64,000 bases of DNA from positions 1 through 64,000 of IMG/VR virus record IMGVR_UViG_3300022752_004079. One strand, written 5' to 3'. Below, one piece after another: positions 5,737 through 62,705 of the stretch. The DNA comes from a virus. Position 1 is the first letter of the stretch. Each line of letters begins with the position of its first letter. Position numbers and translations under genes: made by a program. The notes beneath the pieces were generated by a model. It ran no database searches. It had not been told where the DNA came from and worked only from the letters and a program-made list of their open reading frames with translations.

Positions 5737-7680
5737 TTATTTGATTGTTTTTACGACTTCACCATTTTCATATATTTCGATAACAATGCCCGTTGCCGAT
5801 TCATCAATATCCTGTCCTAACAAATTAGTGCGCCGAGATATTATTCGAATACTTGATTTATTGTTGATTACTATAGGATCAAACACTTCATATGCTCCGT
5901 CGACGTCATACTGAGTCAGTCTGTAATAATTGTACGTAGGTTTAACTGCGGCATCTGTAACATCATAATGAAGTTCTTGAGTTGAATTGCCTGCGGCTGC
6001 AACTGTTGCTAGTTCAAACCATGTTACTCCATTCTCGCTTTTTTCCACTACAAAGTGAGTTGTATTATGTTCAGTAGCAGTTGCCCAATATATTAAATTA
6101 TCTGCAGCTACTTTTTTACCAGAAAAGTACAACAATTCAATTGGTAGTGCTCCCATTGTTATGATTAGAAATTGTTGTGTTTGTGTATTGCATCCGGCAG
6201 CATTTGAAACTGTAACTCGCACTGCTCCATTAGTGGTTGTTTGTGGCCATGTGAATGATATAGTCGGTGAGTTAGAATTAGGTATATTCGTCCATGCAGG
6301 TGCAGAAACTGTTTGTGTGTATGACCAAGCATAAGTGACTCCTGCAATTGGTGTGATCGAGTATGTCTCAGAGGTACCTGCAATGATATTGTTGTTTCCT
6401 GTCACACTGCTTACTGCTGGAACACTAGGATTGACAGTAACACTGGTGTTAGTTGATGCGTTGCATCCATTTGATGAAACGGTGAGTGTATAGCTTTGTG
6501 TGGCATTGGGTGTTGCCCACGGACTAGGTGCTGATGTATTTGTTAGATTAACGTTAGGTGACCATGTGTATGTAATAGGAGCTCCTACAGGCAATCCAGT
6601 CACCGTGCTAACAAGTTGAGTAGATGATCCTGCGCATATTGGGTTAATGCTCGGAGCAATACTAACAGAGGGCATCGGATTAACGGTGATTGTTGCAGCT
6701 GCACATCCTGCACTGAATTGATTGTTGTTATAGTTTCTTGCGTAGTATGTAGTTGTTGATGTCGGAGCAACAGAGATGGAATTTCCTGTACCGATGAAAG
6801 TAGAACCACAACCACCTGCATACCAGTACACAGTACCTATTGCTCCGTTTGCAGTGAGTGTTGTTGAGAAACCACTACACACTGACATAAAGCTGGCTGA
6901 TACTGATGTAGGATTAGTTGGAGGTGGAGGAGGTACGCAACTGCCCGTATATGTTACATTCAAAGCAATACCTGAACCCGTAATTGAAACATCTGAATAA
7001 AACTGCACAGTAACAGTTTGTCCTGGTGCTGATGTATAGGAAACAAATTGTCCCATTTGCCATGTACCTAGTATTGTACCACCCGTTCCGCTTCCGGAGT
7101 AGATTCGCACCCAGTCACAACAAGACTCACCTGAGGTAGATCCACTGATTGAGATTACGGCACCACCAGCATTATTTAAAACCGTGAACCCATTAGCATA
7201 GTTGGAGTAGTTTCCAAACTGACCTCCATGATCATAAAGCGTTGTGTTTGTTCCACAAGCAACACTATTGGAACCGTTATAAGGAATTAGTGTACCTCCG
7301 CTACCGCCACCACTGCATTGTGCTGTACCAATAGAACCACCAAACGATGATCCGCCGGTTTGTAGTGTTTGTAATGCAATTACTGTAGCACCCGTACTAC
7401 TAGTTACTCGAATTTGACATTCGTATGAATAGGAGCCAGTAATGGAACGCCAAACACGAATTGTTGCTCCTGCAGCGGCATTAAAAGTAACAGTAGCTGG
7501 GCCGTAACCACCACCTAAGGTAACGTTGGAAACTACAGTGATTCCATTAACTGACACAGAAGCTCGATTGCCATTCCAACCATCGCCGTAGGTGTCGGTC
7601 AGGTAAAGTGTATGAGTGCAGGTTTGCGAAAGAACGAAACTTGAGACAAAAACAAAAACAGATAGCAAAAAATTCTTCAT
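5737..7680 (-). CDS. Secreted multidomain protein with T9SS type A-like tail
   Basis: 647 residues. A Sec signal peptide (residues 1-19, ending SFVLSQ) is followed by a DTYGDGWNG domain (about 21-105), a CUB-like domain (about 130-247, containing CCDWVRIYSG), a proline linker, two Ig-like domains (about 255-335 and 337-418), another beta domain, and a LPIELLYFSG module (512 on) typical of Bacteroidota secreted proteins. The last 40 residues (TNLLGQDIDE ... GEVVKTIK) match the end of T9SS type A sorting domains, although the usual YPNP part seems missing. Export by the host T9SS and placement outside the cell is therefore inferred. Such a protein is unexpected in a phage. It appears less A+T-rich than its neighbours, consistent with acquisition from a host. 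Confidence 0.8.
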   Translation of the reverse strand: MKNFLLSVFVFVSSFVLSQTCTHTLYLTDTYGDGWNGNRASVSVNGITVVSNVTLGGGYGPATVTFNAAAGATIRVWRSITGSYSYECQIRVTSSTGATVIALQTLQTGGSSFGGSIGTAQCSGGGSGGTLIPYNGSNSVACGTNTTLYDHGGQFGNYSNYANGFTVLNNAGGAVISISGSTSGESCCDWVRIYSGSGTGGTILGTWQMGQFVSYTSAPGQTVTVQFYSDVSITGSGIALNVTYTGSCVPPPPPTNPTSVSASFMSVCSGFSTTLTANGAIGTVYWYAGGCGSTFIGTGNSISVAPTSTTTYYARNYNNNQFSAGCAAATITVNPMPSVSIAPSINPICAGSSTQLVSTVTGLPVGAPITYTWSPNVNLTNTSAPSPWATPNATQSYTLTVSSNGCNASTNTSVTVNPSVPAVSSVTGNNNIIAGTSETYSITPIAGVTYAWSYTQTVSAPAWTNIPNSNSPTISFTWPQTTTNGAVRVTVSNAAGCNTQTQQFLIITMGALPIELLYFSGKKVAADNLIYWATATEHNTTHFVVEKSENGVTWFELATVAAAGNSTQELHYDVTDAAVKPTYNYYRLTQYDVDGAYEVFDPIVINNKSSIRIISRRTNLLGQDIDESATGIVIEIYENGEVVKTIK

Positions 7681-7768: not shown

Positions 7769-10207
7769 TCAGCGAATCAATGTTATATGACCAGATACGG
7801 TATATTTTGCATCAGTATCTTTATCACCAAACCAAATTTTATAAGTATATACACCGTCTGCACATGGCAGCGCATTATACGTTCCATCCCAAGATGCAGT
7901 TGCTGAATACGATTGCCACATAATTTCGCCCCAACGATTGAATATTGTACATTGAAATTCTGCAGGATCAAAGCCTGAAGTAAATACCGGACGCCAGGTT
8001 TGATTGTGTTCATTGCCATCCGGTGTAAACGTGTTTGGCACATAGTATAAAAGTTGCGGACAACGTGATACTGTTACTGTAGTAGTTGCAGGTTGCGATA
8101 CACAACCATTAGCAGTCTGTGTTGCTTGTATGATATAAATTCCGGCCGAGCTCCATGATGCAGTAAGCGTCGGAGATTGCATCGTGTTTCCTAGCATTGT
8201 CCATTCGGTTATGCCGGCAATGTTGACTTGTGCAGTGTATGTTGATACAACCGAATCTCCTTCACAAATTTGTATGAATTGATCGTTTGGTGTAATTGCT
8301 AATACCTCGGGTTGCGGATACACTGTTATTGTGCTAAACGAAGTAAATGCACATCCACTCTGCGTATATGTATATGATATACTATTTGTACCTACCGCTT
8401 GAGTTGGATCAAATTGATTGCCCGTAACACCTAATCCGCTAAACGATCCGCCTGGCGGGCTTGCCATGAGTGTTGTATTTGCATCATATACGCAGAACGG
8501 ACCAACGGCCGTTATAGTAGGCACAATGTGCAATATGTATACATCAACACTAACTGCAGCACTAAGACATCCAAATTGATTTGCAGCAATAACTTGAACG
8601 GCTCCGCCAACTAATCCTGCGTTTAATGCACTCCAATTAACCGCAATGGCACTTGTACCTTGTCCCGATATGATATTGCCTAATGAAGTCCATGTATATG
8701 TATACCCTGGCTGTGTTGGTACTGAATAAGTAGCTGCAGTTTCACCCAAACAAACTGTATCTAATGAAGCAATTGGCCCAGTAACAACGTTGGGTGGATC
8801 GGTTAATGTAACGGTGTTGGAAGCTGTACATCCATTGGCATCCGTAACTACTACAGCATACGTACCTTGACATAGCAATGTAGCTGTTTGTGTTGTTTGC
8901 ATATTACTCCATACATACGTGTAAGGAGCTACCCCATCCGTTGGTGTTGCAGTTGCCGTTCCATTGCAATTACCAGCACATACTGGATTAGTGAATGTCA
9001 TTGACGGATCTTGCAACAGCGGCGGATCAACCAATGTAGCTATAGCATTGGCCGTGCAACCGTTGGCATCTGTTATCAACACAGAATAATTACCAGCACA
9101 AAGTTGTGTTATATTGTTTGTAGATTGTCCCGTTGTCCAGTTATATGTATATGGAGCAGTTCCATTAGTTGGTGTTATCAAAATGCTACCATTACATGAT
9201 GCATTGCACAATGGATTTGTTGCAACAACGTTGGGTGGATTCAATATCGGAGGTCCTGGAACAACTTGCACCGTATCTGGACCAGATCCAACTCCTGCAT
9301 TGCAAGTAGACCAACCTGCGTTGCAAGCACCGTATTCTAAATGACAAGTATAATATGCTCCGCCTGCAGGTGGTGTTACGGTTATTTGATTGACTCCTTG
9401 AGCTATAGGCACTGGGTTACCTACTTGATACCAAACAAGTGTTGGTGGTATTGTTGCACCCGCAGGAGTCCATCTGCGTGCATCATTAACAGCAGTCCAT
9501 TGTGTTGAGTTTCTACCAGTAACCGTAACTGCTTGTGTACCCGTTGCATCATGAATTCCATGCACTGCAGTTCCTCCGGCCCACTGCGGACAATTTGGTT
9601 TGTTGGCAATGTATGTTTCAATGATGTTAGTTGATTCGTATAATACAATATGAAATGTTCCTTGCAGATTGGTACAAGAATACATTGGTACTGCAATCCA
9701 ACTCACAACCAAACGCCTACATGGAGCAACACCTTGAATTTGATAGCGAATTTGTCCACCAATACCTGGATTCCAATCCTGCCACGGCGCCATAACACAA
9801 TTTTTTGGTACAAATGCATTTGCCGTTGGTATTGATAGTGACGTAAACGTTACGGGCTGTGCCGTTGCTCCTAAAGAAACCCATCCATTGGATCCAATTC
9901 GGAACTGAGTATATGTTGTTCCATAATAACAAAATGTAAATCCAATGTTAAATGTTCCTGATTGAGTATCATCGCCTAACGGAACTAATGTGCCTGTATT
10001 TGTTTGTGGAGCATATGATATTTGAGATACCGTGTATGCAGTTGTTGCATTAGGATTACTACCCGCACCGCATTGAGATAAATTTGCTGTTATCGTTGCG
10101 TTAGTAACTCCGCAAGGAAGAATTTGGTCTGGTCCCAATGCTGGGCAATATTGAGTATAAGCAATAATGCCAATCAACAGCATGATAATAGTGTAAACGT
10201 GTTTCAT
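7769..10207 (-). CDS. Secreted SprB-repeat adhesin-like protein with T9SS type B domain
   Basis: 812 residues. Signal peptide at 1-19 (ends IIAYTQ). A beta-sandwich region (about 55-250) is followed by two SprB-type repeats (about 327-395 and 402-470; each has CNG, APYTY and VTDANGCTA), two Ig/PKD-like domains (about 475-710), and a C-terminal gliding-motility-associated domain (about 720-812: VPNTFTPDGNEHNQTW, IFNRWGE, DGVYTYKIW). That last domain (CHU_C) is the T9SS type B sorting signal. SprB is the gliding adhesin of Flavobacterium, so this protein may be secreted to and displayed on the infected cell, or it may mimic or block the host adhesin. It forms a unit with the 647-residue cargo gene. 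Confidence 0.85.
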   Translation of the reverse strand: MKHVYTIIMLLIGIIAYTQYCPALGPDQILPCGVTNATITANLSQCGAGSNPNATTAYTVSQISYAPQTNTGTLVPLGDDTQSGTFNIGFTFCYYGTTYTQFRIGSNGWVSLGATAQPVTFTSLSIPTANAFVPKNCVMAPWQDWNPGIGGQIRYQIQGVAPCRRLVVSWIAVPMYSCTNLQGTFHIVLYESTNIIETYIANKPNCPQWAGGTAVHGIHDATGTQAVTVTGRNSTQWTAVNDARRWTPAGATIPPTLVWYQVGNPVPIAQGVNQITVTPPAGGAYYTCHLEYGACNAGWSTCNAGVGSGPDTVQVVPGPPILNPPNVVATNPLCNASCNGSILITPTNGTAPYTYNWTTGQSTNNITQLCAGNYSVLITDANGCTANAIATLVDPPLLQDPSMTFTNPVCAGNCNGTATATPTDGVAPYTYVWSNMQTTQTATLLCQGTYAVVVTDANGCTASNTVTLTDPPNVVTGPIASLDTVCLGETAATYSVPTQPGYTYTWTSLGNIISGQGTSAIAVNWSALNAGLVGGAVQVIAANQFGCLSAAVSVDVYILHIVPTITAVGPFCVYDANTTLMASPPGGSFSGLGVTGNQFDPTQAVGTNSISYTYTQSGCAFTSFSTITVYPQPEVLAITPNDQFIQICEGDSVVSTYTAQVNIAGITEWTMLGNTMQSPTLTASWSSAGIYIIQATQTANGCVSQPATTTVTVSRCPQLLYYVPNTFTPDGNEHNQTWRPVFTSGFDPAEFQCTIFNRWGEIMWQSYSATASWDGTYNALPCADGVYTYKIWFGDKDTDAKYTVSGHITLIR

Positions 10208-16974: not shown

Positions 16975-18813
16975 TTATCGCAACAAAGCATCGATTCTGT
17001 TTTGTATGTCATCTCGATGTATGTTACAAATTTCTCGCAATGATGGCAAATCATTAAGTATTTGCTGCAATGTCATGAAATATGCTACTACTTCCATGGT
17101 TTGTGATGTTGGATTTTCTAGTGTTGATAAAGTTTTTGCAACAGCTGCATCAAATGAAGTTTTAAGTTTAGAAGTATTTTGAATGTTGAGGACTAATTGT
17201 GGCAAACTTAATTTTTGTAGATTCAACGGTTTTATTTGTTGTATCAAGTCTTGTAAATCCATTTCAACATCTACACTGCTATCGAAACATTGAATTTCAA
17301 CAATGCTTGCTGGCAACCCCCGAAATGATCGAATAGTTGCATTTGACTCTGTACCTCGTTTTAAAACAAGCTGCCTGACACCAGGTAAGCCTGAAAAATC
17401 AGTAAAATCACCACCAAGAAGATTTATTGTATCAAATGAAGTTGGGCATCCTTGAAAATTCTTAACTTTTGGATTTCGCAATACCAAAGTATGACATGAT
17501 TCTGGAAAATTTTCAAAACTAGTTAAATTGGTAATTCGCAATGCATTAATTTCTTTAAATTGTATGGGACAATATGTAGGATTGTTATTTGAGATGGGTA
17601 GTCCAAAATCAACATCGAATGCAGGAGCATCAACATACAATTTATCTGCATCTAAAAAATTCAATGTGCTGCCATAAGAGTAATACGTTGCATAATTATC
17701 TAGTATGTAATATACTTCATCCGTTGTAGTGGCTATTTGTTTGCGTTTTATTATGTTAGCAACCAATTGTTCAATGTTGTCTGTACCATATTTAGTAAGA
17801 TATCGTTTCGAATCACAATACAATGTATCAACCATTTTGAATCGTCCCGTTTTTCCGGGTTGTGCTGCATTTACAATGTTGTTAACAGCTTCTAAAAATG
17901 TATGCGGTGGACTACCATATACACGTTCTTCTGGTTCATAAAATACATCGGTTGCATCATCGGTATTGACAAACGGTTTAATTGCAACTCGAGCAATGGG
18001 ACGTGTTATGTTTAAATCATCATTTGCAACTAAATATGCAACCATGGTACCATTTTCAACATCATATTGTATGTAGTGTTTATTGATGCCCGAATATAAA
18101 TTCATGCAACTAGTCCAACCACGATTCGTACTCATTCCGGCAACATCATATGCATGTTTGGAAAACACAATGTAATATGTTTTTACTTTGTTTTCTCGAG
18201 CTCGCTGTATTTCTGGAATTGTATCATAAAGTTTTAAGATGTTATCTATTTTCTTTTTAGCTTCTTGTTTTATTTGTGCCAAAACATCATCCCATGGTCG
18301 GCTGCCGCCGGTACCAACAAGCATTCTTTTTCCTTTTGCATCAGTTTCAACATGGCGTTCTAATTTAGGAATAAACCCCTTTACATCTGTTTGTGTAACT
18401 AGAGCCGCAATAAATTTGGACATTTTGGTGGTGCGACCATATGCATCTTTTGGTTGGCCGTATATGATTTGATCTACAGTTGGCAGTTCAAACGTATCAA
18501 AATTTTCTCGTTGAGAAAATGCATTAGCATCTACTACATATTGTTTTAAAACTGGATAAAAATTTGTGAATTGATGAGATAAACTGTCTTGGCCTGGGTT
18601 AAACACTGTTTCTTTGCTTTCAAACTTTACCGCAATTCTATCACCTCTACGCGATGATTTTGCATCTGGACGTTGTTTGATTGCATCTAATATGGCATCT
18701 AATCGTTGTGTAATTTCTGGATTTCGCTTGATGCTAACAAAGTTACGGGCCATATCTAAAGGTAATGCTTCTTTGATTAGTTGCGTCTCTAAAAGTTGTT
18801 TCAATTTAATCAT
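16975..18813 (-). CDS. Large LRR-like protein with LxE leader (candidate internal head protein)
   Basis: 612 residues. Begins MIKLKQLLE (LLE at 7-9), like nine neighbours. The region around 210-290 has YYIVFSKHAYDVAGMS, RGWTSCMNLYSG and a core of PIARVAIKP, a conserved phage pattern of unknown role. Residues about 400-520 have irregular leucine-rich repeats (LTSFENFPESCHTLVLRN, FSGLPGVRQLVLKRG). No enzyme motif is evident. By the leader it could be packaged into the head and injected; by size and LRRs it could bind a host protein. Its start overlaps the upstream stop (TAATG). Confidence 0.7.
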   Translation of the reverse strand: MIKLKQLLETQLIKEALPLDMARNFVSIKRNPEITQRLDAILDAIKQRPDAKSSRRGDRIAVKFESKETVFNPGQDSLSHQFTNFYPVLKQYVVDANAFSQRENFDTFELPTVDQIIYGQPKDAYGRTTKMSKFIAALVTQTDVKGFIPKLERHVETDAKGKRMLVGTGGSRPWDDVLAQIKQEAKKKIDNILKLYDTIPEIQRARENKVKTYYIVFSKHAYDVAGMSTNRGWTSCMNLYSGINKHYIQYDVENGTMVAYLVANDDLNITRPIARVAIKPFVNTDDATDVFYEPEERVYGSPPHTFLEAVNNIVNAAQPGKTGRFKMVDTLYCDSKRYLTKYGTDNIEQLVANIIKRKQIATTTDEVYYILDNYATYYSYGSTLNFLDADKLYVDAPAFDVDFGLPISNNNPTYCPIQFKEINALRITNLTSFENFPESCHTLVLRNPKVKNFQGCPTSFDTINLLGGDFTDFSGLPGVRQLVLKRGTESNATIRSFRGLPASIVEIQCFDSSVDVEMDLQDLIQQIKPLNLQKLSLPQLVLNIQNTSKLKTSFDAAVAKTLSTLENPTSQTMEVVAYFMTLQQILNDLPSLREICNIHRDDIQNRIDALLR

Positions 18814-19553
18814 TACATTTCCTGTCGTATTCCTAATTTAGGAAGATATGTTCGCCAAGTGTTTAAAATGTTTTCTTTGTCTTGTGCAGACATGGTACCA
18901 TTATTTACCCACATAGATAAATATTCATCAACTGTTGTTTTGAATGGTTGTTTGCTTTTTTTTGCCTTAAAATACAATCCCTGAAGCATTGCTGGAATTT
19001 CTTTAGGCAACGTAAAATAACGTGCCGCAGGCAATTTACCAGCTTCAATGCGATTGCGAAGACTTTGATCTGACGGTATATATTTGCCATCAATTGTATT
19101 CCACCCACTTTGCGTTACATGTTCAATTTCATGACGCAATGTGTCTCGCAAGTTCATTGCAATTTCACTCAACACTCTCGGATATTCTGCAGGATCAATT
19201 TCCAATCTAACTTCAATCAGCGGTGGCTCGGCCGAGTCTCGCTTTGAATCATTGTATGCATCGCCTCCATATCGCAAATCATTTAATCCTTCAATCCATT
19301 GTATTTTTAATTGCAAGTAAAATTCTACCGGTATGGTTGCATTTTCAACTTCTTCAAAATACACAGCCGGCTGTTGTGTATCATCTTCGATAGAAGGTAC
19401 CGTTTCAGATTTGGTATAATATATTTTCTTTCCACCAAACTCTCCTGATTCTGTTTGCGTTGCCGTGTAACTGTCTTTGATTATTGCTAAAAGTGTATTT
19501 GATAACTTTGTAACTAAAGAATCATAACGACCTTCTAAAAATAAACGCTTCAT
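18813..19553 (-). CDS. HExxH metallopeptidase-like protein with short leader
   Basis: 246 residues from the ATG at 19553 (MKRLFLEGRYD); a longer frame has no better start. The central part has RHEIEHVTQSG, a zincin HExxH site (HEIEH), with a plausible third ligand in the PKEIPA segment about 55 residues later. The residues between (LRDTL before the motif) look like a helix carrying it. The leader MKRLFLE is close to the LxE leaders of the neighbours but has Phe at -3. If packaged, it could be a protease delivered to the host cell or one involved in head maturation. Peptidase activity is inferred from the motif only. Confidence 0.7.
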   Translation of the reverse strand: MKRLFLEGRYDSLVTKLSNTLLAIIKDSYTATQTESGEFGGKKIYYTKSETVPSIEDDTQQPAVYFEEVENATIPVEFYLQLKIQWIEGLNDLRYGGDAYNDSKRDSAEPPLIEVRLEIDPAEYPRVLSEIAMNLRDTLRHEIEHVTQSGWNTIDGKYIPSDQSLRNRIEAGKLPAARYFTLPKEIPAMLQGLYFKAKKSKQPFKTTVDEYLSMWVNNGTMSAQDKENILNTWRTYLPKLGIRQEM

Positions 19554-19573
19554 GGATATCATAATAATAAATA

Positions 19574-20128
19574 TCATTCAAGCAGATTGTAATTCCAATA
19601 ACGTTCTTTGTCTTGATTAAAAGGATTACCTGTTTGTTGATAGTAACAATTTATGCAAAGCATTTGAAGATTTTCAATGCAATGATTTGAGTCATCTCCA
19701 TCACGATGGTCTAAAAGTAAAGGCACTGTATCATCGGTTATTCTGCGTTCTGCATAACCACAACTGTTGCACTGTTCTGGAAGTATTGCCAATGCTAACA
19801 ATCGATTGCGTAGCTTCCAAGTAGGGTAGTTAGGATGCTTACCCGTTAAGATATTGTCAATTGAATATATACCTTTGTTGGCTTTGCAAACATCTTTTGG
19901 AATTCCAATTCCAAATTGATTTTTGTGAAGTTCATACAATGTTTTTCCAGTGTCTCGATCCTCATACATTCGAGCATACTTTTTATAAGTAGTAAATGAT
20001 ATTTTAAGGAAACGAGCTGCTTCGGCATTAGATTTTGTATTTTCCATTGCATAGCGTATTTCGCTTTCTGGAATATCCAATGCAGTTTTACCAATGCCGT
20101 AAACGTATTTGTATTGCTTTTCTTGCAT
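19574..20128 (-). CDS. HNH endonuclease (homing-type)
   Basis: 184 residues from the ATG at 20128 (TGATG overlap with the upstream stop). The C-terminal half has CNSCG, then LLLDHRDGDDSNH, ENLQMLCINCYYQ: a zinc-ribbon HNH site with two CxxC pairs, the catalytic DH and the downstream N. An N-terminal helix-turn-helix-like stretch (NAEAARFLKISFTTYKKYAR) could read DNA sequence, as in phage homing endonucleases. It interrupts a run of small genes and is a likely mobile element. Confidence 0.88.
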   Translation of the reverse strand: MQEKQYKYVYGIGKTALDIPESEIRYAMENTKSNAEAARFLKISFTTYKKYARMYEDRDTGKTLYELHKNQFGIGIPKDVCKANKGIYSIDNILTGKHPNYPTWKLRNRLLALAILPEQCNSCGYAERRITDDTVPLLLDHRDGDDSNHCIENLQMLCINCYYQQTGNPFNQDKERYWNYNLLE

Positions 20129-20514
20129 CAATATACTCCATGTTTCTGCAGAATATTAACTGCATCTCGCGGAAACGTTTTGTTATCATACATTTCCGTA
20201 ACTAAATCTTGCAATTTGTTAATTTTTGCATCAAAGAATGTAGGATGAACTTTGGACAATTTTCTTACTTCTGTAATCCAAAATGAATATATTGGATACT
20301 TATCTACAAATCGATCTGCATCTGTACGATTCTCCCAATAAGTAATTTGATCTTGTAATGGCCACATATGAATTGGAACGTTTGGATCTTTTCGTATACC
20401 TGTTTGAAACGGTTGTTGTGCTTCTCGTTTCATGTTTTTGGAAATAAATTTATCCATGATCATTGCTGATCGGTCTTTGGGGGACATTCCGGTGTGTGCT
20501 GATTTTTTACCCAT
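20128..20514 (-). CDS. Hypothetical protein (128 aa)
   Basis: 128 residues, starting MGKKSAHTGMSPKDRSAMIM; basic and helical, several Trp and Tyr residues in the middle (MWPLQDQITYWENRTD). No known domain. Overlaps both neighbours by a few bases. Confidence 0.6.
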   Translation of the reverse strand: MGKKSAHTGMSPKDRSAMIMDKFISKNMKREAQQPFQTGIRKDPNVPIHMWPLQDQITYWENRTDADRFVDKYPIYSFWITEVRKLSKVHPTFFDAKINKLQDLVTEMYDNKTFPRDAVNILQKHGVY

Positions 20515-20707
20515 TTGATTGTTTTGTTTTTTCAGATAATATAACTAATTTGCGCCATGCATCTTCTGCACGGTATGCATATGTTTTAAATTTTATAATG
20601 TCTAATTTTTTACGTGCCAATTCCATGCGCCGCATGTTGCGATGATATGTAGCATGTAGTATTGCAATGCGAAAACGAAGTATGGCGTTATGAATTTTTC
20701 TTAACAT
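20507..20707 (-). CDS. Small basic helical protein (66 aa)
   Basis: 66 residues, starting MLRKIHNAILRFRIAILHAT. Very rich in Arg and Lys and helical throughout (RMELARKKLDIIKFK). May bind nucleic acid; no family recognised. Overlaps the end of the ClpS-like gene by 20 nt. Confidence 0.5.
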   Translation of the reverse strand: MLRKIHNAILRFRIAILHATYHRNMRRMELARKKLDIIKFKTYAYRAEDAWRKLVILSEKTKQSNG

Positions 20708-20963
20708 GTTTTTCCAATGTTGATTTTAATTTGTTTTTCAAAAAATATTCATGAACTGATTCACAATCTTCATAACAATCAATAAATACAACACATCGCC
20801 CGGCATTGTGCACAATCAACGCACACTGATGAGCTTGCATTTCATTGTGTCCGCACGCGTCAACCAAACAATAAACAACGTGATCAAACGTATTGTGATT
20901 GTCATTGTGCAACGTAACTTGATACTTGCCTCGTTTAGATTTCGTTGACTGCTTCTTTGACAT
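20688..20963 (-). CDS. clpS: ClpS-like protease adaptor
   Basis: 91 residues from the ATG at 20963. The core matches ClpS: YQVTLHNDNHNTFDHVVYCL, then CGHNEMQAHQCALIVHNAG and a C-terminal pair of helices. In bacteria ClpS binds the N-domain of ClpA/ClpC and delivers N-degron substrates. The DN/NTFD substrate-binding region is kept. A phage copy could redirect host Clp proteolysis or block it. The upstream neighbour has a UVR-type motif, which is also found in Clp partners, so the two may act together. Confidence 0.85.
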   Translation of the reverse strand: MSKKQSTKSKRGKYQVTLHNDNHNTFDHVVYCLVDACGHNEMQAHQCALIVHNAGRCVVFIDCYEDCESVHEYFLKNKLKSTLEKHVKKNS

Positions 20964-21135
20964 CGCGGATAATTGCACATTGTTCATATAATTCTCGTTC
21001 TGTAGCATAATGTAATGATTCATTTAAAAATCGCAAACGTCGTTGTTTGTCCCACGTATCGGGCCATTCCCATTCACCAGTTGCCATGATGTTAATGGAA
21101 TCGATAAACAATTGTTCTATGAAATTTTGATTCAT
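20935..21135 (-). CDS. UVR-motif-like small protein (66 aa)
   Basis: 66 residues, starting MNQNFIEQLFIDSINIM. The C-terminal half, LNESLHYATERELYEQCAII followed by RD, resembles the UVR motif of UvrB, UvrC, McsA and ClpC (leucine-rich start, E-YE, A-IRD). Overlaps clpS by 29 nt, and a promoter lies directly upstream. It may bind the Clp ATPase or another UVR partner; this is inference. Confidence 0.55.
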   Translation of the reverse strand: MNQNFIEQLFIDSINIMATGEWEWPDTWDKQRRLRFLNESLHYATERELYEQCAIIRDVKEAVNEI

Positions 21136-21137
21136 AA

Positions 21138-21168
21138 CTTAATATAATTAAAAATATATAAAATTCAA
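21138..21168 (-). promoter_or_regulatory. Class A-like promoter (TTGAA-N19-TATATTAAG)
   Basis: On the minus strand TTGAA (21168-21164) and TATATTAAG (21146-21138), 19 bases between TTG and TAT. Weaker -35 than the TTGGA set. Precedes the UVR/ClpS pair. Confidence 0.45.
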
Positions 21169-21183
21169 AATATACAATGTATA

Positions 21184-21237
21184 TTATTTCTTACCCCAAT
21201 TCTTTGCACTTTTTTTTCTACAAGCTGCATAGTTTAA
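21184..21237 (-). pseudogene. Truncated C-terminal copy of the 22151-22543 gene
   Basis: The minus strand encodes LNYAACRKKSAKNWGKK then TAA, closely matching the end of the intact gene at 22151-22543 (LALAACRKKGAKNWGNKS). The frame is closed by a TAA just before it and no start precedes it. It lies past the stop of the 21252-22154 gene, so that gene is flanked by a full copy and a remnant copy of the same gene end, as after a duplication-linked insertion. Confidence 0.65.
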
Positions 21238-21251
21238 TTAGTTGTTTTATA

Positions 21252-22154
21252 TTACTTAATAGCATGTGTTATTCTACCTTTATAAACCTTTTTTAATTGT
21301 ATGAATACATCAGCGGGTAATGTTATGTCAAACAATTCATTTACGACTGCACCTGCTTGGCCTACAAGTGATAAAATTGGACTGAGTAAGGTGGCCGCTC
21401 CAACTATAATTTTTTCAGTACTAGTCCATTTTTCAACTTTAGCACCCAACGCCAATGCAACGCCATCGGCACAATTTTGTGTCAAAACATTGTAATTTTG
21501 TATTGCTTGATTAGGACTTTTAACTGATTGTGCCAATTTATCTGCCTTGTACCCAAGTTTTAAATTTAAAGCCGGTGTTGTTTTTTTGAATTTATCATAC
21601 TCTTGATCTGTCAAATAAATATAAATTGTATGTGCATTACTTGGTTTGTCAGGAATTTTTTTACCTGTCATTGGCATATTCCAAAAGTTTTTAGTTTCTT
21701 TTCCACCAAGTATAATATCAACGTAATCCATTTGTATTGGATTTGCATTCATCTGATATTGAGGTTCTCTCAGAGACCTACATTCAATATGACCTGTGGG
21801 AAATTTTTTATCCAGTGGTGCATAATAATTTACTTGAATTGGCCATGGTGTAGCTTTACTCGTTTTTGGTTGATAGGCCAAAGCTTCTGCTTTTGCTGTC
21901 ATTTGTTTTCTAACTTGTTGTGCAGTTTTACCTTTATTAGGTCCTGCTTCATATTGTTTTGTATCTGGATTAAATCCGTACCACATGGATGTGATTGGAC
22001 GTCCCCAATTGTCTTTAATTTGTTGTGCAGTTTTACCTTTATTAGGTCCTGCTTCATATTGTTTTGTATCTGGATTAAATCCGTACCACATGGATGTTTC
22101 CAGACGTCCCCAATTGTCTTTAACTTGCTCAAGCAACATTTTTAATGATATCAT
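21252..22154 (-). CDS. Repeat-bearing protein with LxE leader (candidate internal head protein)
   Basis: 300 residues. Starts MISLKMLLE (LLE at 7-9). Residues 12-46 and 47-81 are a near-identical tandem repeat of 35 residues each (KDNWGR ... WYGFNPDTKQYEAGPNKG). The middle has SLREPQYQMNANPIQMD and IYIYLTDQEYDKFK; toward the C-terminus QNCADGVALALGA and a hydrophobic stretch (IIVGAATLLSPILSLVGQAG). NCAD with a nearby His (HIECRSL) could suggest an NlpC-like or peptidase fold, but I cannot confirm it. Flanked by a whole and a partial copy of the next upstream gene. Confidence 0.7.
   Translation of the reverse strand: MISLKMLLEQVKDNWGRLETSMWYGFNPDTKQYEAGPNKGKTAQQIKDNWGRPITSMWYGFNPDTKQYEAGPNKGKTAQQVRKQMTAKAEALAYQPKTSKATPWPIQVNYYAPLDKKFPTGHIECRSLREPQYQMNANPIQMDYVDIILGGKETKNFWNMPMTGKKIPDKPSNAHTIYIYLTDQEYDKFKKTTPALNLKLGYKADKLAQSVKSPNQAIQNYNVLTQNCADGVALALGAKVEKWTSTEKIIVGAATLLSPILSLVGQAGAVVNELFDITLPADVFIQLKKVYKGRITHAIK
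21912..22121 (-). repeat. Two tandem 105-bp coding repeats
   Basis: Units at 22017-22121 and 21912-22016 are nearly identical in DNA and give two 35-residue repeats in the 21252-22154 protein. The few differences cluster near the start of the unit, suggesting a recent duplication. Confidence 0.85.
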
Positions 22155-22543
22155 GATTTATTCCCCCAATTCTTTGCACCTTTCTTTCTGCATGCCGCAA
22201 GCGCCAATGATCCGTATGCAGATGGCCAAACATCGTATCGTGCTTTTACTTTGTAGTAGCATGCATCTCGTTTTGCTGTCTTTTTTTCTTCAATTGCACC
22301 TTCAGCTTTAGGAGTACGTTTACCCATACCAACTCGTCGCTTTTGTGCAACCAATGCTTTCTTTTCTTTTTTATCAAATGAACTCCATGTTTTAGGTGTG
22401 TCTTTTGATACTCGTCGAGAAGGTCGACACTTTTTAACTCCTTTGGTTTCGGCATTACCACAAGGTCGTCCATGTTGATCTGTCCATTTTTCTTTCACCC
22501 AACGGCGAAGATCTTCTGATAACAAATCAACTAATCGTATCAT
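22151..22543 (-). CDS. Conserved Arg/Lys-rich phage protein with LxE leader
   Basis: 130 residues. Starts MIRLVDLLSE (LSE at 8-10). The body has KWTDQHGRPCG, KKCRPSRRVS and the C-terminal KARYDVWPSAYGSLALAACR. This resembles a conserved phage family of unknown function (I believe the DUF5872-type pattern). Very basic; the Cys residues (C29, C39 and others) may bind metal. The basic nature fits a DNA-associated internal head protein. A truncated copy of its C-terminus is at 21184-21237. Confidence 0.7.
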   Translation of the reverse strand: MIRLVDLLSEDLRRWVKEKWTDQHGRPCGNAETKGVKKCRPSRRVSKDTPKTWSSFDKKEKKALVAQKRRVGMGKRTPKAEGAIEEKKTAKRDACYYKVKARYDVWPSAYGSLALAACRKKGAKNWGNKS

Positions 22544-22875
22544 TATTTTCCTCGTTCTTCACGAATAATTAATTCACCTAAAACTTCTAATCGACCAACC
22601 TCTCGTTGAAATTCAATTTGTGTCATTGAAGTGGATATGCGTTTATATGTAGCATCAAATTCTTGTTTTGCTTTATCTAAATCAAATCGACCAGCTGCGG
22701 CTCGTTTATAGTAAGGTAATTTAACTTTGAAATGATGCCAAGTAAGTAAAGCTAACCCGCCTTTCTTGTGAGCCGTATCGGCAATTTTTTCTGCACCAGC
22801 TTCTCGCGTATCAGCAAACGTTTCAAAAGTTTCTGGTTTTTCTTTTGTTTCAAAAAGTAAATTACGTAGTTTCAT
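22543..22875 (-). CDS. Conserved phage protein with LxE leader (110 aa)
   Basis: Start set at 22875 (MKLRNLLFE; LFE at 7-9); the alternative GTG further up lies next to the upstream stop. The body has KKGGLALLTWHHFKVKLPYY, a string I associate with conserved phage proteins, then a helical basic tail. Function unknown. Sits in the run of LxE-leader genes. Confidence 0.65.
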   Translation of the reverse strand: MKLRNLLFETKEKPETFETFADTREAGAEKIADTAHKKGGLALLTWHHFKVKLPYYKRAAAGRFDLDKAKQEFDATYKRISTSMTQIEFQREVGRLEVLGELIIREERGK

Positions 22876-22886
22876 ATTAATAAATA

Positions 22887-23549
22887 TCACAACGTAGGAA
22901 TCAATTTGTATGATTTTCGTCCAAATATTAACATGGATCTAAAATCGGCTTGTTGAAATGCATCCAATGAATATTTTGATAACATGTTGAATCGTTTGAT
23001 AACTGATAGTGTTTCTTGCCAATTGATATGTTGAAGCACCGTTTCTACATAATCAATATCAATTAACATATCTGATACGTCTCTATAGTCCCATTCAATA
23101 TGAACAACGGGCCGCACCTTATTTTCAAAAATATAATCAATACATAAATCTAAACCACATTTGAATTCAGCAGTTAAAATTCTTAATAGTTCAGGACGTT
23201 GAATTGCATATGTTTTTATTTGTTCTGCAGCTTCTCCCGATACTGGATATCTAAAAACAAACTGACTATGATCTAATATCAATTCTGAATTGTTGTGTTG
23301 CATAAGCCATGGTTGAATTATTGCATGAGCTCCATTTGCAGCATCTCCATCTTTATACCAGGTAGTATCATGTTCTAATACAACGTTGTTATGGCGATAA
23401 TATGCTTGTTCAATTTCGTTTAAATCAAAACCTTCATGATCAACATGACACGTATAATTTAGTAATACATGTTCTGCGACGTCATCTGGCAATGGTTTTG
23501 AAATTGTAATATCATGATAAATAGGCTTTGATACATTATAACTTAACAT
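22887..23549 (-). CDS. Hypothetical protein (220 aa), no leader
   Basis: 220 residues, starting MLSYNVSKPIYHDITISKPL. Mixed alpha/beta, no membrane segment, no recognised motif. Unlike its neighbours it has no LxE leader. TAATG overlap with the gene downstream of it in coordinate order (23549). Function unknown. Confidence 0.6.
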   Translation of the reverse strand: MLSYNVSKPIYHDITISKPLPDDVAEHVLLNYTCHVDHEGFDLNEIEQAYYRHNNVVLEHDTTWYKDGDAANGAHAIIQPWLMQHNNSELILDHSQFVFRYPVSGEAAEQIKTYAIQRPELLRILTAEFKCGLDLCIDYIFENKVRPVVHIEWDYRDVSDMLIDIDYVETVLQHINWQETLSVIKRFNMLSKYSLDAFQQADFRSMLIFGRKSYKLIPTL

Positions 23550-23947
23550 TACATCATGTTTTTTATTATGTTTGCAAAATTTGTTTTTGAATTATTAAAA
23601 TCTGAATCGGCATCATCAAATAGTTTGGTTTCATATGAATTTTTTGTTTTTTTAATCAAACAAACCGTTGCATCAAACTGTTCCAGCCCATTTAACAAAT
23701 AAACGATGCCAAAATATGCATATGAATCGCAAACTTTTGCAATGAATTCTGCTTTTGAAAATATCAATTTTAATGTACCCAAATCTTCTATAGGTGCACT
23801 AAAAACATGTTCTTTTCGTTTTAATCCTAAATATGTAAACTTAGGAGATATTTTCATTTGTTTTGAAAATTCTTTAAAAAATGGTTTAGCTAATTGTTTT
23901 GGATCAACAACATCATTTTCATTTAATATATTTTTCAATTTCATCAT
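23549..23947 (-). CDS. Hypothetical protein with LxE leader (132 aa)
   Basis: 131 or 132 residues (two ATGs at 23947 and 23944); begins MKLKNILNE after the extra Met. LNE is at residues 7-9 from the second Met. The rest is alpha/beta with an Asp/Asn-rich end (DDADSDFNNSKTN). No recognised domain. Likely part of the packaged-protein cassette. Confidence 0.65.
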   Translation of the reverse strand: MMKLKNILNENDVVDPKQLAKPFFKEFSKQMKISPKFTYLGLKRKEHVFSAPIEDLGTLKLIFSKAEFIAKVCDSYAYFGIVYLLNGLEQFDATVCLIKKTKNSYETKLFDDADSDFNNSKTNFANIIKNMM

Positions 23948-24363
23948 TTTGTTAAATCTTTGTCATCTAATGCTCCCCCAGTTACCCAAGCAGTACATGA
24001 TCTAGATCCAGCACATTTAAAATGTAAAAAATTACAATATCCTAAATCTGCTTTTTCTATGGTAGCCATGGCATCAATATTTTTTTCATTACCACGTATG
24101 CCATTTTCCATACAAACCCGCATCTTATCTGAAACATCAAATGCGGCACAATTACCACAGTGCATTGTTTTAGCAGTGGATTCATCAATTTTCCAACGCT
24201 TAGCTGCATCTTTCCAGTATTGTCCTGGTTTATCTGGGTTTGCGGGGCCGTAATAATATTCATCTATTGCACGTTGACGATTTTTAAGATTAATATGAAT
24301 ATCCTGAGTTGCAATAGGGCATCCGGTTTTAGCTTCAATCAATATATGTTTAAGCTTTTGCAT
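23944..24363 (-). CDS. Cys-rich conserved phage protein with LxE leader
   Basis: 139 residues. Starts MQKLKHILIE (LIE at 8-10). The body has CPIATQDIHINLKNRQ, CGNCAAFDVSDKM, YCNFLHFKCAGSRSCTAW: a conserved pattern in large phages with about six to eight Cys, probably a metal or Fe-S site. I recognise the pattern but not a known function. Overlaps its downstream neighbour by a few bases. Confidence 0.75.
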   Translation of the reverse strand: MQKLKHILIEAKTGCPIATQDIHINLKNRQRAIDEYYYGPANPDKPGQYWKDAAKRWKIDESTAKTMHCGNCAAFDVSDKMRVCMENGIRGNEKNIDAMATIEKADLGYCNFLHFKCAGSRSCTAWVTGGALDDKDLTK

Positions 24364-45045: not shown

Positions 45046-45674
45046 TATAATGTATCGTAATATGCGTTTTGTTTTTCTTGTCGAGCAATAGTCTTTGGAT
45101 GATAAAGTGCAAATTGTTTTGCGTCTGGCATCGTTGTGTAAGTTTTAAAACCAGCTAAACGTTCATGCACTTTGTTTATCCACGTAATTTCAGCATTGTT
45201 TTTCCATATACGCCATTGATAATCAGGCCAATTGACCCAACCTTCATTGTTTACGTTCCATCTCCATTTAGCAACATGCTCGGCCGTTAAACCTTCTACT
45301 GTATTTATGCGCGGCACTAAAAAAACATCAATCTCATTGTTTTCTTCTAGCATTGCAGGTAAAATATCAATTAAATTTTCATCTGGAATTTCATCCGCAT
45401 CAATTTGAAAAATGTAATCGCCTTTGCAAAAACTAGTTAATTTGTTTTTCCAATTGGCAAAATGTCCTTGAAATTCTGCAGGCCAAACTACCATATGATC
45501 CATGTTATGACTTTCAAAAAGTCGTAACGTTGATATCAATTCAGAATCAGCTTTTGTAGTATCCAGTAGTACTACAATTTCATCTTGTTGCCGTTTATGT
45601 TTCAATAAAAAATTTAACAGTCGCTGAATTTCTATAAACTCATTGCAAACCGTGACGGCATAACTTATTTTCAT
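45045..45674 (-). CDS. Family 2 glycosyltransferase (short)
   Basis: 209 residues. GT-A: MKISYAVTVCNEFIEIQRL, DEIVVLLDTT, YIFQIDADEIPDENL (DxD). Lacks a long C-terminal region. Adds a sugar within this island. ATGA overlap with the next gene. Confidence 0.85.
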   Translation of the reverse strand: MKISYAVTVCNEFIEIQRLLNFLLKHKRQQDEIVVLLDTTKADSELISTLRLFESHNMDHMVVWPAEFQGHFANWKNKLTSFCKGDYIFQIDADEIPDENLIDILPAMLEENNEIDVFLVPRINTVEGLTAEHVAKWRWNVNNEGWVNWPDYQWRIWKNNAEITWINKVHERLAGFKTYTTMPDAKQFALYHPKTIARQEKQNAYYDTL

Positions 45675-46957
45675 GCCTCAATCTTTTTTAAATTGGGTAA
45701 TGTAATAGTGGGTTTAGTTTCGCTATCAATTTTTTTCAATTTTGGTAAATTTAAAGTTACATGCTGCGGCGACGATTGAATTGAATTATCAATAATATTT
45801 AATACTTTTTTATATACTGCGGTTACTGCAGTTTTTGTAAATGTTAAATTGACATAATATCGTTGACGTTTTGCTAATTCTTTCCATTTTTTATAATTCT
45901 TTTGAACTTCTTTCATCATTTTACCAGCATATCCATAATCTACAGTAAACCATTTTGCTCCTTTAATTAAAAATTCATTTCTAGCAGACCCATGGATATC
46001 TGTTAATACTCCTGAAAGCGGGCAAATAAATTCTTTTTTAAGAAAATCTGCTTGTCCAGAATAATGTGGAGCAATAATTGGTTTACCTGTAGTAGAAAAT
46101 TCTAATAATGGTCTTCCAAATCCTTCTGCCTTGGTAAACGATATCATAGCTTTAACTTTTGGATGATTGTAAAGCATATTCATTTCTTCATCTGCCAAAT
46201 CGCCATGTAACAAATATACATTAGGTAATTTTGCATTACCAAACATATCTTGTATTTGTGTGATTTTATTTTCAATCTCCATTCGATCCATTACGGAATA
46301 TGTTGCACCACTTGATTTCAATATGAGAGCAGGTGCATCTTTTTGATTCTTATATGTATTGAAAAAGCAATGAAGCAAGCCGCTAATGTTTTTACGATCT
46401 TCTCCAACTTGTCCTTGCAGCCAATGGCCAACTGATAAAAATGCAAATGTTTCTGGAATTTGTTCTAGAATTTCTAATTGCAATTGTACATTGTTTGTAT
46501 AAATCGTTTCATCAAAATATTCCGGAATAACTTCAATACGCGTTGTTATTGGTTTATTGTGTTTTTGTGATGTATTAACAAATACTTGTTTGGTAAATTC
46601 ACTTGGAACAATAACTAGTTGCATTGCATTCAAATTATCAATCCAAGCTTCTGGACATATGTCTCCTTCCGTTCCTGCAGTAACTCCAACATTAAATTTA
46701 CCAATTGCTTGTAATTCATTTGGAACTGTAATTTGTACCCAAATATCTGGCTGATATTGTAATGGCAATGGAATCAATCGTTTTTGCCAATCAATTGATA
46801 GTGGATAGGTAAATGGAGTATGGCCCCATGGCATTGAAACTAATTTAATGTCCCAATCGGAGTTTCGTTGTTCTATAAAATTTGCAATAATCTCTCGTGC
46901 ATGATGTCCATACCCGGATTGTGTTGCTAAAGGTGATGAAATAACTACTGTTCGCAT
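45671..46957 (-). CDS. Family 4 glycosyltransferase with LPxLKKI tail
   Basis: 428 residues. GT-B, GT4 type: PLATQSGYGHHAREII at the N-terminus, KAMISFTKAEGFGRPLLEFS (EX7E region) near the C-terminus. The last 30 residues have two copies of a short motif (LPKLKKID, LPNLKKIE), echoed at the start of the next gene's protein. Probably builds a phage-specified glycan. Start overlaps the upstream gene by 13 nt. Confidence 0.85.
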   Translation of the reverse strand: MRTVVISSPLATQSGYGHHAREIIANFIEQRNSDWDIKLVSMPWGHTPFTYPLSIDWQKRLIPLPLQYQPDIWVQITVPNELQAIGKFNVGVTAGTEGDICPEAWIDNLNAMQLVIVPSEFTKQVFVNTSQKHNKPITTRIEVIPEYFDETIYTNNVQLQLEILEQIPETFAFLSVGHWLQGQVGEDRKNISGLLHCFFNTYKNQKDAPALILKSSGATYSVMDRMEIENKITQIQDMFGNAKLPNVYLLHGDLADEEMNMLYNHPKVKAMISFTKAEGFGRPLLEFSTTGKPIIAPHYSGQADFLKKEFICPLSGVLTDIHGSARNEFLIKGAKWFTVDYGYAGKMMKEVQKNYKKWKELAKRQRYYVNLTFTKTAVTAVYKKVLNIIDNSIQSSPQHVTLNLPKLKKIDSETKPTITLPNLKKIEA

Positions 46958-48438
46958 ACTATTCCTGTTTTTTCGTATTTTTTAGTTGTAACTTTATGTA
47001 TCGTATAGTTTTTTCTCATTTGCGGTTTAGATTGGAATAAATAATCAATCATTTTAATCATTTTTTGACCCATTTGTTGAGCAGTCAATCCATTTTTTAA
47101 ACACCATTCTCTTCCTGATTGGCCCATTGACTCTCGAAGCATTTCTGGAGTGTCATACCAATAACGAATTGCATCAGCAACATCTTCGAAACGAGCTCGA
47201 TCATCAAAAATATATGGCGTTTGCGGAGAACCTTGCAAGCTTCTATTACTAGGAAATACTGGTTTTACCCAAATTCCGTGATTTTTATATTTACCCGTAT
47301 GATTTGTTGATAAATCACTATTAAATCGTATCCATTCATCATTTTCGTCGACAAATCCGCATTGATCTTGTAGTCCACCTGTTACGTTATTAATAATAGG
47401 AGTCCCTGATAACATTGCTTCGGTTGAACTTAGTCCCCAACCTTCGTTACTACCAATATTAACTACTACATCGGCAACATTATACATTGCATTTAATTCA
47501 TTTGGCATCATTTTTTGTTCAGAAAAAATAATTTTACATTCTGGCGCCAGTGTTTTATGAATTGCATTTAAATCTGTACCATTTTCATCTACAATTTGAG
47601 TATGCATTAAAAGTGCAACTTGATTTTGTTTTTCTTTTGGTAATGCGTCTACAAATGTTTTGAATGCTAATATTACATCGCCTGGTTGTTTTCTCCGTAT
47701 ATTTCGATTATTCCAAAAAACTACAAAATCAACACCATTTTTAATTTTAATACGTTCATGCATTTGTTTATATACGACATCATCTTGCGATAATGGTTTA
47801 AACGTGTTATGATTTAATCCGTGCGGAACAAATCCCGTAATAATTTGATTCCATTTTACATCTGCAGTACAAACATCGGCATCATAATCTACAATATCAA
47901 AACCATTTTGTGTAAGTACTTCGCGATGAATATTGTCTGATTGTTTGCTAATACCCATAATCAAATCGCAACTTGCATAAAATGGTGCATTCCACATTGG
48001 GTATGGTAGATCGTCCCAAATTGAGTAATATATAATTGGAAGTTTAAAGGTAGTTTTAATTTCATGTTCAATAGCATACAACCACGTCCAATATCTAGGA
48101 TCAGTAAAATGAAATATTGCATCTGGTCGTTCTTGATTTAAAATTGCAAATAATACATTTCTATCACCATACCCATTCCATGGAATAATTTTAACTGAAG
48201 CATCTGGTACGCCTGTTTCTTGTGCAACTTGCACAGATAAATCAAATGCTTGTCCGGCTTCTGGATGTTTTAATGCAGCACCCAATTGCACCCAATCATA
48301 ATGATGCACAGTGTTAAAAATAATTTCACGACTAATTGTTCCAATGCCAGATGGCAACCGAAAATCGTCTGCTAACAATAAAATTTTCTTTTTCTTGGGT
48401 TTGTTTGGATCGATTTTTCTTAATTTTGGTAACTCCAT
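46945..48438 (-). CDS. Family 4 glycosyltransferase with LPKLRKID start
   Basis: 497 residues. Starts MELPKLRKIDPNKPKKKK, then GT4 domain: DDFRLPSGIGTISREI, WVQLGAALKH, NVADVVVNIGSNEGWGLSST (EX7E). A lysine-rich linker separates the motif from the enzyme. The same LPxLxKI string is at the C-terminus of the partner, so both may dock on one protein or on each other. Motif B and an AAAGGAG site precede the start. Confidence 0.85.
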   Translation of the reverse strand: MELPKLRKIDPNKPKKKKILLLADDFRLPSGIGTISREIIFNTVHHYDWVQLGAALKHPEAGQAFDLSVQVAQETGVPDASVKIIPWNGYGDRNVLFAILNQERPDAIFHFTDPRYWTWLYAIEHEIKTTFKLPIIYYSIWDDLPYPMWNAPFYASCDLIMGISKQSDNIHREVLTQNGFDIVDYDADVCTADVKWNQIITGFVPHGLNHNTFKPLSQDDVVYKQMHERIKIKNGVDFVVFWNNRNIRRKQPGDVILAFKTFVDALPKEKQNQVALLMHTQIVDENGTDLNAIHKTLAPECKIIFSEQKMMPNELNAMYNVADVVVNIGSNEGWGLSSTEAMLSGTPIINNVTGGLQDQCGFVDENDEWIRFNSDLSTNHTGKYKNHGIWVKPVFPSNRSLQGSPQTPYIFDDRARFEDVADAIRYWYDTPEMLRESMGQSGREWCLKNGLTAQQMGQKMIKMIDYLFQSKPQMRKNYTIHKVTTKKYEKTGIVCEQ

Positions 48439-53255: not shown

Positions 53256-54515
53256 TTAAAATGTAAAGAATTTATTAAAATTTTCTGCATCGGTAGTTGA
53301 TATACTGCTACCACCGAATTTTTTGTATGTTTTGATGTATTTTTCGTATACTTGAGGTGCCGAATCTGGATCTGCAAACATTTCATGCAAAGATAAAATT
53401 ACATCATATAAATCTCTTGGTATTACTGTTTCTAGCAATTCTACGTGACTATCAACCATTTGATTGATTTCATTTGCTGCCTGTACATACAAATGCGTGT
53501 TGTGAACTACCATTCTTGGCATTGCTTCTTGAGAATATCGATCCAAACCATCTGCAGTTTTACCTCCTAGCAATTCATATGTAAAATCTTTACATGCAGG
53601 ACATCCCAATGCACATGGAACATATTGAGTCAAATCGATTGCAACTTCTCCAGTTTTACCTTGTTTGATGTGTGCCTTTCTGCGATATTCGGCATTCTTT
53701 GGAAAATACAATTCTGAAAATGATTGTGTTTTGTAATTTGTTGAATGAAGATATGTTCCAAATACTGGATATTGTCCTGGAGAAGATGAATCCGTTGTAA
53801 TATAAATTCGATTTCCGGTATGTTCATTCATTAATTTTTGCAATGTAGCCAAAATAAAGAAATCTGAAATTTTGCTAATGCCTAATAAGTGAACGTATTC
53901 TAATCGTTTATTTTCAAATTCTCGCTCTTTAAGCATCAAAGAAACCGCAAACATGAAATCAACTAATTTTTGCGGACCTCCAATTGCCCAACCTTGAAAA
54001 TCAAAATGCTTAAATTTATGATACCACCAAGTATATTCATCGGCATTTGAACCTTGCAACATGTTTAAAAATTTTGTTTTACCGCTTTGATGTTTTTCAA
54101 ACCAAGCAAAATTATCAAAACTAATGTCAGCACAATGTGCAAATTGATTGCGATATTTTGTTTTGGGCGGGATATCCAAATTAGCTGCAACATCGCTGTT
54201 TGCTTCTAACCAATGAAATATCTTTTCTCGCAATTCATTGCTATATGGCAATGCACCTGTTGCAATCTGATAACCTCCTGAGTCACCAAATACTAGCACA
54301 TCTTTTTCTAATCCCATTTGATCGCGAAAATCCATTTTCTTGTAATGATGTCCTGCCGTAACCAAAAAATATGGATGTCTCCATTCTGCAGGATATCTAG
54401 AATCAAAGAATTTTACCGGATCGCCATTTGCAAACTTCATATCTTTTTTGAATGCAGAAACCATCGATCCTGCAGATAAAGATGGAAAATATATAAATCG
54501 TTTATTTTCTGCCAT
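53256..54515 (-). CDS. dpdA: DpdA-type DNA 7-deazaguanine transglycosylase
   Basis: 419 residues of the TGT superfamily. DSGGYQIATG (catalytic-site Asp), WAIGGPQ and LLGISK as in TGT barrels, a second Asp in TTDSSSPG, and CALGCPACKDF for zinc binding. Phage DpdA proteins replace guanine in DNA with a 7-deazaguanine base. FolE, QueD and QueE for the precursor are encoded at 61.1-63.4 kb. A glycosyltransferase gene overlaps its start, hinting at a further sugar modification of DNA. Confidence 0.85.
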   Translation of the reverse strand: MAENKRFIYFPSLSAGSMVSAFKKDMKFANGDPVKFFDSRYPAEWRHPYFLVTAGHHYKKMDFRDQMGLEKDVLVFGDSGGYQIATGALPYSNELREKIFHWLEANSDVAANLDIPPKTKYRNQFAHCADISFDNFAWFEKHQSGKTKFLNMLQGSNADEYTWWYHKFKHFDFQGWAIGGPQKLVDFMFAVSLMLKEREFENKRLEYVHLLGISKISDFFILATLQKLMNEHTGNRIYITTDSSSPGQYPVFGTYLHSTNYKTQSFSELYFPKNAEYRRKAHIKQGKTGEVAIDLTQYVPCALGCPACKDFTYELLGGKTADGLDRYSQEAMPRMVVHNTHLYVQAANEINQMVDSHVELLETVIPRDLYDVILSLHEMFADPDSAPQVYEKYIKTYKKFGGSSISTTDAENFNKFFTF

Positions 54516-55530: not shown

Positions 55531-55531
55531 A

Positions 55532-61057: not shown

Positions 61058-61113
61058 CGTGTTATTTCGTATATAATTTTAATATCGCCAATAGTTGTTG
61101 TTGTGTAATACAT
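61054..61113 (-). CDS. Tiny peptide gene (19 aa) with strong RBS
   Basis: MYYTTTTIGDIKIIYEITR. ATG at 61113 overlaps the queE stop (TAATG), a strong GAGGAG lies about 5 nt upstream, and the stop overlaps the thioredoxin start (ATGA). The perfect fit between two genes suggests translation, perhaps to couple queE and trx. Confidence 0.45.
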   Translation of the reverse strand: MYYTTTTIGDIKIIYEITR

Positions 61114-62704: not shown

Positions 62705-62705
62705 A

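Follow-up and report, generated by a model that had tools for sequence, protein, structure and literature searches.

A phage ClpS homologue in fixed gene pairing with a UVR-like protein: a candidate two-part adaptor for a host Clp protease

A T4-like phage with a probable Bacteroidota host encodes a ClpS homologue, and the gene for it is paired, throughout the clade of related phages, with a gene for a small UVR-like protein. We put at roughly 45% the probability that the two proteins form a two-part adaptor which such phages use on the host ClpC-ClpP protease. The constancy of the pairing, the homologies of both proteins and the resemblance to a plant adaptor pair carry this reading, and other explanations are weighed below where the evidence touches them.

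The ClpS homologue and its reading frame

The window, by which we mean the whole stretch of DNA analysed, comprises 64 kb out of a 71.6-kb virus record, and every gene discussed here lies on its minus strand (Table 1). The longest clpS ORF matches the Pfam family PF02617 with an E value of 7e-18 (64.6 bits, cut-off 23). In the AlphaFold model, the core has a pLDDT over 90. The model matches solved ClpS structures with Z values of 12.6-15.5, with an rmsd of about 1 Å for the best rows. Best of all is ClpS from M. smegmatis (Z 15.5, rmsd 0.9 over 76 residues), and the best rows that are not ClpS reach a Z of about 10. The first-pass annotation had named a clpS homologue at this place and had tied the claim to a predicted ClpS fold. 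The family score and the fold bear it out, and the region encodes a real ClpS.

The same annotation had clpS overlapping the upstream gene, which is correct, but the probable length of the overlap differs. In some distant relatives, there is no start codon ahead of the conserved residues MSKK, so translation probably begins at the ATG at 20963, and the first 20 residues of the longest ORF are probably not translated. Starting from there, the overlap is about 29 nt and not 89. The overlap in relatives is mostly 23-32 nt.

Table 1 Features of the cassette in the window
Feature	Position	Strand	Basis
UVR-like gene, 66 aa	20935..21135	(-)	Kept in every uncut locus; AlphaFold pLDDT 92; dN/dS 0.05-0.11
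UVR-like helical hairpin (predicted), residues 30-65, includes FLNESLHYATERELYEQCAIIRDVKEAV	20941..21048	(-)	Profile-profile match with nulls; structural superposition, in which competitors are unspecific
ClpS, 91 aa from conserved MSKK start	20688..20963	(-)	PF02617, fold, start conservation
Longest clpS ORF, 111 aa	20688-21023	(-)	
Asn-Asp of the N-degron pocket (E. coli N34, D35)	20901..20906	(-)	Alignment
His of the N-degron pocket (E. coli H66)	20808..20810	(-)	Alignment
Overlap of UVR-like and ClpS reading frames, 29 nt	20935..20963	(-)	Overlap conserved in clade
Third cassette gene, 66-aa basic helical protein	20507..20707	(-)	Always 3' of clpS; dN/dS 0.07-0.15
Fourth cassette gene, 128-aa protein	20128..20514	(-)	Present in 77/77 distinct loci with room

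Conservation of the gene pairing

Viral contigs were scanned with the small cassette proteins, and one locus was taken per distinct ClpS (84). The gene order UVR-like, ClpS, basic 66-aa protein, 128-aa protein was found in 80/81 distinct loci. The single exception is cut by a contig end, and the exceptions in the wider scan are likewise cut contigs. In every uncut locus, the UVR-like gene directly precedes clpS on the same strand, and the pairing holds over the 84 distinct ClpS sequences, to about 45% identity. This association is far beyond chance and confirms the coupling of ClpS to a UVR-motif gene that had been annotated first. The gene directly upstream of the cassette changes. It mostly belongs to a loosely linked lysozyme group and is otherwise one of several unrelated proteins; hence, the cassette is the conserved unit.

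Purifying selection acts on the UVR-like gene, clpS and the third gene, the three that were tested (dN/dS among relatives is 0.05-0.08 for clpS; the other ranges are given in Table 1). The third gene overlaps the end of clpS by 20 nt and is itself overlapped by the fourth gene by 8 nt. Its product gave a weak DUF6435 match in 3/15 members and has no detectable relationship to the UVR-like protein. The third and fourth genes (together 20128-20707) are constant members of the cassette with no function assigned.

No relatives of the UVR-like or the basic protein were found near ClpS in 80 bacterial loci, in other jumbo phages with ClpS or in three uncultured phages of 634-642 kb. Matches to Acinetobacter "phage" sequences with clpS-clpA appear to come from bacterial contigs and were excluded.

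A simpler explanation would be that the phage captured an ordinary N-degron adaptor from its Bacteroidota host, by which N-degron turnover is boosted or retuned, and that the UVR-like gene was inherited along with it and has no Clp function. We consider this possible but doubtful, as a chance companion is hard to reconcile with a pairing that stays invariable while the next gene upstream changes. ClpS can be enough by itself, as it occurs in other phages that lack a UVR-like gene, and jumbo phages with ClpS alone are in line with the simpler explanation (PMC7824862; PMC6102473). So is a second ClpS clade from phage contigs, in which the pocket is intact and a UVR-like gene is absent. The contigs of this second clade reach 436 kb (L461; loci L449-L528) and were found with the ClpS of a 635-kb uncultured phage. 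Upstream of their clpS lies a gene for a HAD-like phosphatase.

Host, phage type and other features of the window

The window encodes SprB and CHU_C domains, which belong to type IX secretion, and the closest cellular ClpS proteins are those of Bacteroidota; both point to a probable Bacteroidota host. A T4-type prohead protease (S77) in four larger relatives and a phage-type DNA polymerase with clamp loader in the window indicate a T4-like phage. In the tree, a branch with good support (97/100) sets the ClpS of the clade apart from that of Bacteroidota; two long-branch Melainabacteria rows are all that is left unplaced. This topology is compatible with one old capture of ClpS in the clade.

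Ten phage contigs from the clade (61-160 kb, some incomplete) contain no Clp_N (the N-domain of Clp ATPases), no ClpP and no Aat. All five sampled Bacteroidota genomes encode ClpP and Aat. They also encode UVR domains within proteins as long as ClpC (about 866 aa); by this length and by where the UVR domain lies, these proteins are taken to be ClpC. The pair therefore presumably relies on host machinery, and the distribution of these genes fits an action on the host system. Aat makes N-degrons, and its presence in the sampled genomes also fits an ordinary N-degron adaptor.

Several further features were noted in the window. About seven clustered, otherwise unrelated proteins (16975-24363) share the N-terminal leader M(I)xLKxLLxE, with MIRLVDLLSED, MMKLKNILNEN and MQKLKHILIEA as examples. 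The same leader is found in relatives, in 68/83 of the genes that directly precede the cassette (for the most part lysozyme genes). It resembles the T4 capsid-targeting sequence that is cut by the prohead protease, an enzyme present in relatives, so these proteins may be packaged and injected. SprB repeats, a CHU_C type IX secretion signal domain and a CHU_C-associated Ig-like domain are encoded at 7769-10207 and 5737-7680; proteins with such domains are unusual as a phage virion or secreted product. Three glycosyltransferase-like genes (45671-48438 and 54502-55554) possibly serve DNA or virion glycosylation. Genes for a QueE-like radical SAM protein and a GTP cyclohydrolase (61113-63371) may belong to a deazaguanine DNA modification pathway. 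The gene at 21252-22154 has a nearly exact direct repeat near the protein N-terminus, KDNWGRxxTSMWYGFNPDTKQYEAGPNKGKTAQQ, which is present in a single copy in the closest relative (L002).

The N-degron pocket and the Clp contacts

In Caulobacter ClpS, N47, D49 and H79 bind the amino group of the N-degron (PMC12493166). By alignment, these are N34, D36 and H66 of E. coli ClpS, whose numbering is used here. Conservation of the pocket, which the first-pass annotation had singled out as informative, turned out to be mixed. N34, D35 and H66 are present in the window ClpS and D36 is replaced by Asn, which leaves a pocket that appears largely intact. Among 82 distinct members of the clade, position 34 is Asn in 62 and Asp in 20. 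Position 66 is His in 69, Asp in 10 and Asn in 2, and D36 is kept in 31. The bacterial relatives have N34 and H66 in 80/80 cases. D35 and V43 are invariant in the phage clade and in the bacterial relatives, and Q60 is invariant in the phage clade.

Either N34 or H66 is changed in 30/81 scorable clade members, which is unexpected for a plain reader of N-degrons, whereas retention of both in the window protein is what such a reader should show. In the second phage clade, N34, D35, D36 and H66 are kept in 41/41 distinct sequences. Thus, the pocket is intact in the clade without the UVR-like gene and drifts in the UVR-coupled clade. As two clades are compared, a tie between drift and UVR coupling is only a hint.

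E79 and K84 of E. coli ClpS contact the N-domain of ClpA (PMC12493166); the window ClpS has Cys and Glu at these positions, where Bacteroidota ClpS vary too. The N-terminal extension is mostly 11-13 residues long in the clade, about 20 in the hosts and 27 in E. coli.

Together with the drifting pocket, the short extension would suit an anti-adaptor, in which the pair sits on the ClpC N-domain and at the UVR contact but delivers nothing, so that host ClpCP is blocked and phage proteins are protected. Leptospira ClpS1, in which H66 is naturally Asp, retains binding to ClpA and inhibits its ATPase, and E. coli ClpS reduces the affinity of ClpA for ssrA-tagged substrates (PMC12493166). We nevertheless consider an anti-adaptor unlikely because N34 and H66 are both kept in 51/81 scorable members (about 63% of the clade), the window protein included, which together with the invariant D35, V43 and Q60 suggests that a ligand is still bound.

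The UVR-like protein

The C-terminal half of the 66-aa protein reads L..A...E.YEQCAIIRDV, and Bacteroidota UVR domains read L..A...E.YE.AA.IRDEI. The Pfam UVR model PF02151 gave no match even at E ≤ 10 (15 members, 25 contigs), and Pfam, PHROGs and PDB sequence searches returned nothing useful for this protein. Single sequences searched with a home-made UVR model in HMMER were borderline, the best score being 4.9 bits with a shuffle maximum of 9. Only a deep profile-profile comparison separated the UVR-like protein from shuffles. In hhalign, a profile built from 80 relatives was set against 16 Bacteroidota UVR domains, which were judged by length and context to be nuclease-like, ClpC, UvrB and UvrC. 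The score was 21.9 (probability 52%) over 35 ungapped columns. Column shuffling gave a mean of 8.3, a standard deviation of 2.0 and a maximum of 17.6, and a null that preserves the hydrophobic pattern had a maximum of 18.7; 0/400 shuffles reached the observed score in either case. An earlier shuffle null, made before column trimming, had 3/300 above the observed score; gapped columns were blamed for these outliers, and the null was repeated on trimmed columns. The UVR match ranked first among 38 natural families from the same kinds of phage, with the runner-up at 15.5 over 8 columns.

AlphaFold predicts three helices (3-18, 30-46 and 50-65), of which the latter two form a hairpin with a pLDDT over 90. 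This hairpin superposes on the C-terminal UVR domain of UvrB without gaps, and the phage Arg57-Asp58 falls on the Arg-Asp of UvrB (own numbering of the 40-mer). The McsA and ClpC hairpins superpose on residues 25-66 of the phage protein. Bacterioferritins and other unrelated helical hairpins superpose as closely as the UVR domains, so the structure is consistent with UVR but not diagnostic, and a fold search by itself was rejected as proof since it cannot separate a UVR hairpin from other hairpins.

Taken by profile, the second half of the protein is best described as a diverged UVR domain, and the resemblance appears real but remote, for which UVR-like is the right name. The earlier statement that the upstream product ends in a UVR-like motif holds in the sensitive profile comparison, but not with the Pfam UVR model. 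A mere chance likeness of a helical hairpin would agree with the failure of every member in Pfam and with the close fit of unrelated hairpins. It is quite improbable, as the match extends along the whole UVR domain and outscores all 800 shuffles and the 37 other natural families.

UVR domains connect UvrB with UvrC, and the UvrB C-terminus is among the closest superpositions (rmsd 1.4 Å, 38/38 residues), but a role of the UVR-like protein in DNA repair, as a mimic of the UvrB/UvrC hairpins with clpS beside it by accident, has a very slim chance because Pfam and PHROGs recognise no repair gene in the cassette, clpS is the constant recognisable neighbour and the UVR domain of host ClpC offers a direct link.

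Proposed mechanism

In the two-part adaptor, the docking site of phage ClpS would be the N-terminal domain of ClpC (or ClpA) of the host, to which ClpS would deliver chosen proteins. Its UVR-like partner would bind either ClpS or the UVR hairpin of Bacteroidota ClpC, and this contact would anchor the complex or alter the choice of substrates. Host proteolysis would thereby be redirected during infection, with a split of labour as proposed for chloroplast ClpS1 and ClpF. We favour this reading because the pair resembles ClpS1-ClpF and because the presumed ClpC of Bacteroidota has a UVR hairpin. We infer the physical contacts of either protein with host Clp or with its partner, the nature of the substrates, and a redirection instead of a blockade. 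Since UvrB and UvrC have UVR hairpins too, a partner other than Clp is conceivable. The short N-terminal extension, the replacement of E79 and K84, the commonness of the predicted hairpin and the inclusion in the cassette of two genes without a known Clp link all count against a two-part adaptor. The initial proposal that the pair may hijack or inhibit host Clp-dependent proteolysis is thus supported in part, namely in the coupling and in both homologies, that to UVR by sensitive profile comparison only.

A rather unlikely extension of the two-part adaptor is that the UVR-like partner has taken over recognition of the substrate or the ATPase, which would make the classical ClpS pocket dispensable in parts of the clade and would be convergent with ClpF-ClpS1.

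Comparison with known systems

McsA is tied to ClpC and, like the phage protein, has a UVR hairpin in its structure. The zinc-binding cysteine pairs of McsA are absent from the 66-aa protein, which has one cysteine only.

Bacteroidota ClpS and the phage ClpS have N-T-F-D-H, two cysteines and Q60 in common. The phage clade differs by a Cys at E. coli position 83, the loss of G69-K70 in many members, the drift at N34, D36 and H66 and the shorter N-terminal extension.

Phage-encoded ClpS is already known. It has been described in Agrobacterium phage Atu_ph07 (PMC6102473), and a survey of 2021 regarded jumbo-phage ClpS as an adaptor that likely brings targets to host ClpAP (PMC7824862). As in the window, ClpS is phage-encoded in Atu_ph07, Cronobacter phage GAP32, Pseudomonas phage PA5oct and their kin. 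Unlike in the window, clpS adjoins genes for Hsp20, thymidine kinase, IF3 or S21 in these jumbo phages, and there is no UVR-like neighbour. A search of open-licence papers found no report that links ClpS of a phage to a UVR protein; on this basis, ClpS as one half of a fixed two-protein unit appears to be new.

To our knowledge, ClpF-ClpS1 is the sole co-adaptor of ClpS and a UVR protein. Chloroplast ClpF is a UVR protein that associates with ClpS1 and ClpC1 and was proposed to form a binary adaptor, in which ClpS1 and ClpF jointly deliver substrates, among them GluTR, which lacks an obvious degron (PMC7966870). The plant and phage pairs both combine a UVR-bearing protein with ClpS, and the plant pair works on a ClpC that itself bears UVR (PMC7966870). 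ClpF, described as unique to higher plants, differs by its YccV domain; the stand-alone 66-aa phage protein gave no YccV match in Pfam scans. Interaction has been reported for ClpF and ClpS1, whereas the phage pair is known here from sequence and predicted structure. In the phages, natural variation splits the parts, with ClpS alone and an intact pocket in one clade and ClpS with a UVR-like protein and a drifting pocket in the other. The two clades thus provide material for learning how ClpS may select substrates by means other than N-degrons and what role the UVR domain plays in ClpC.
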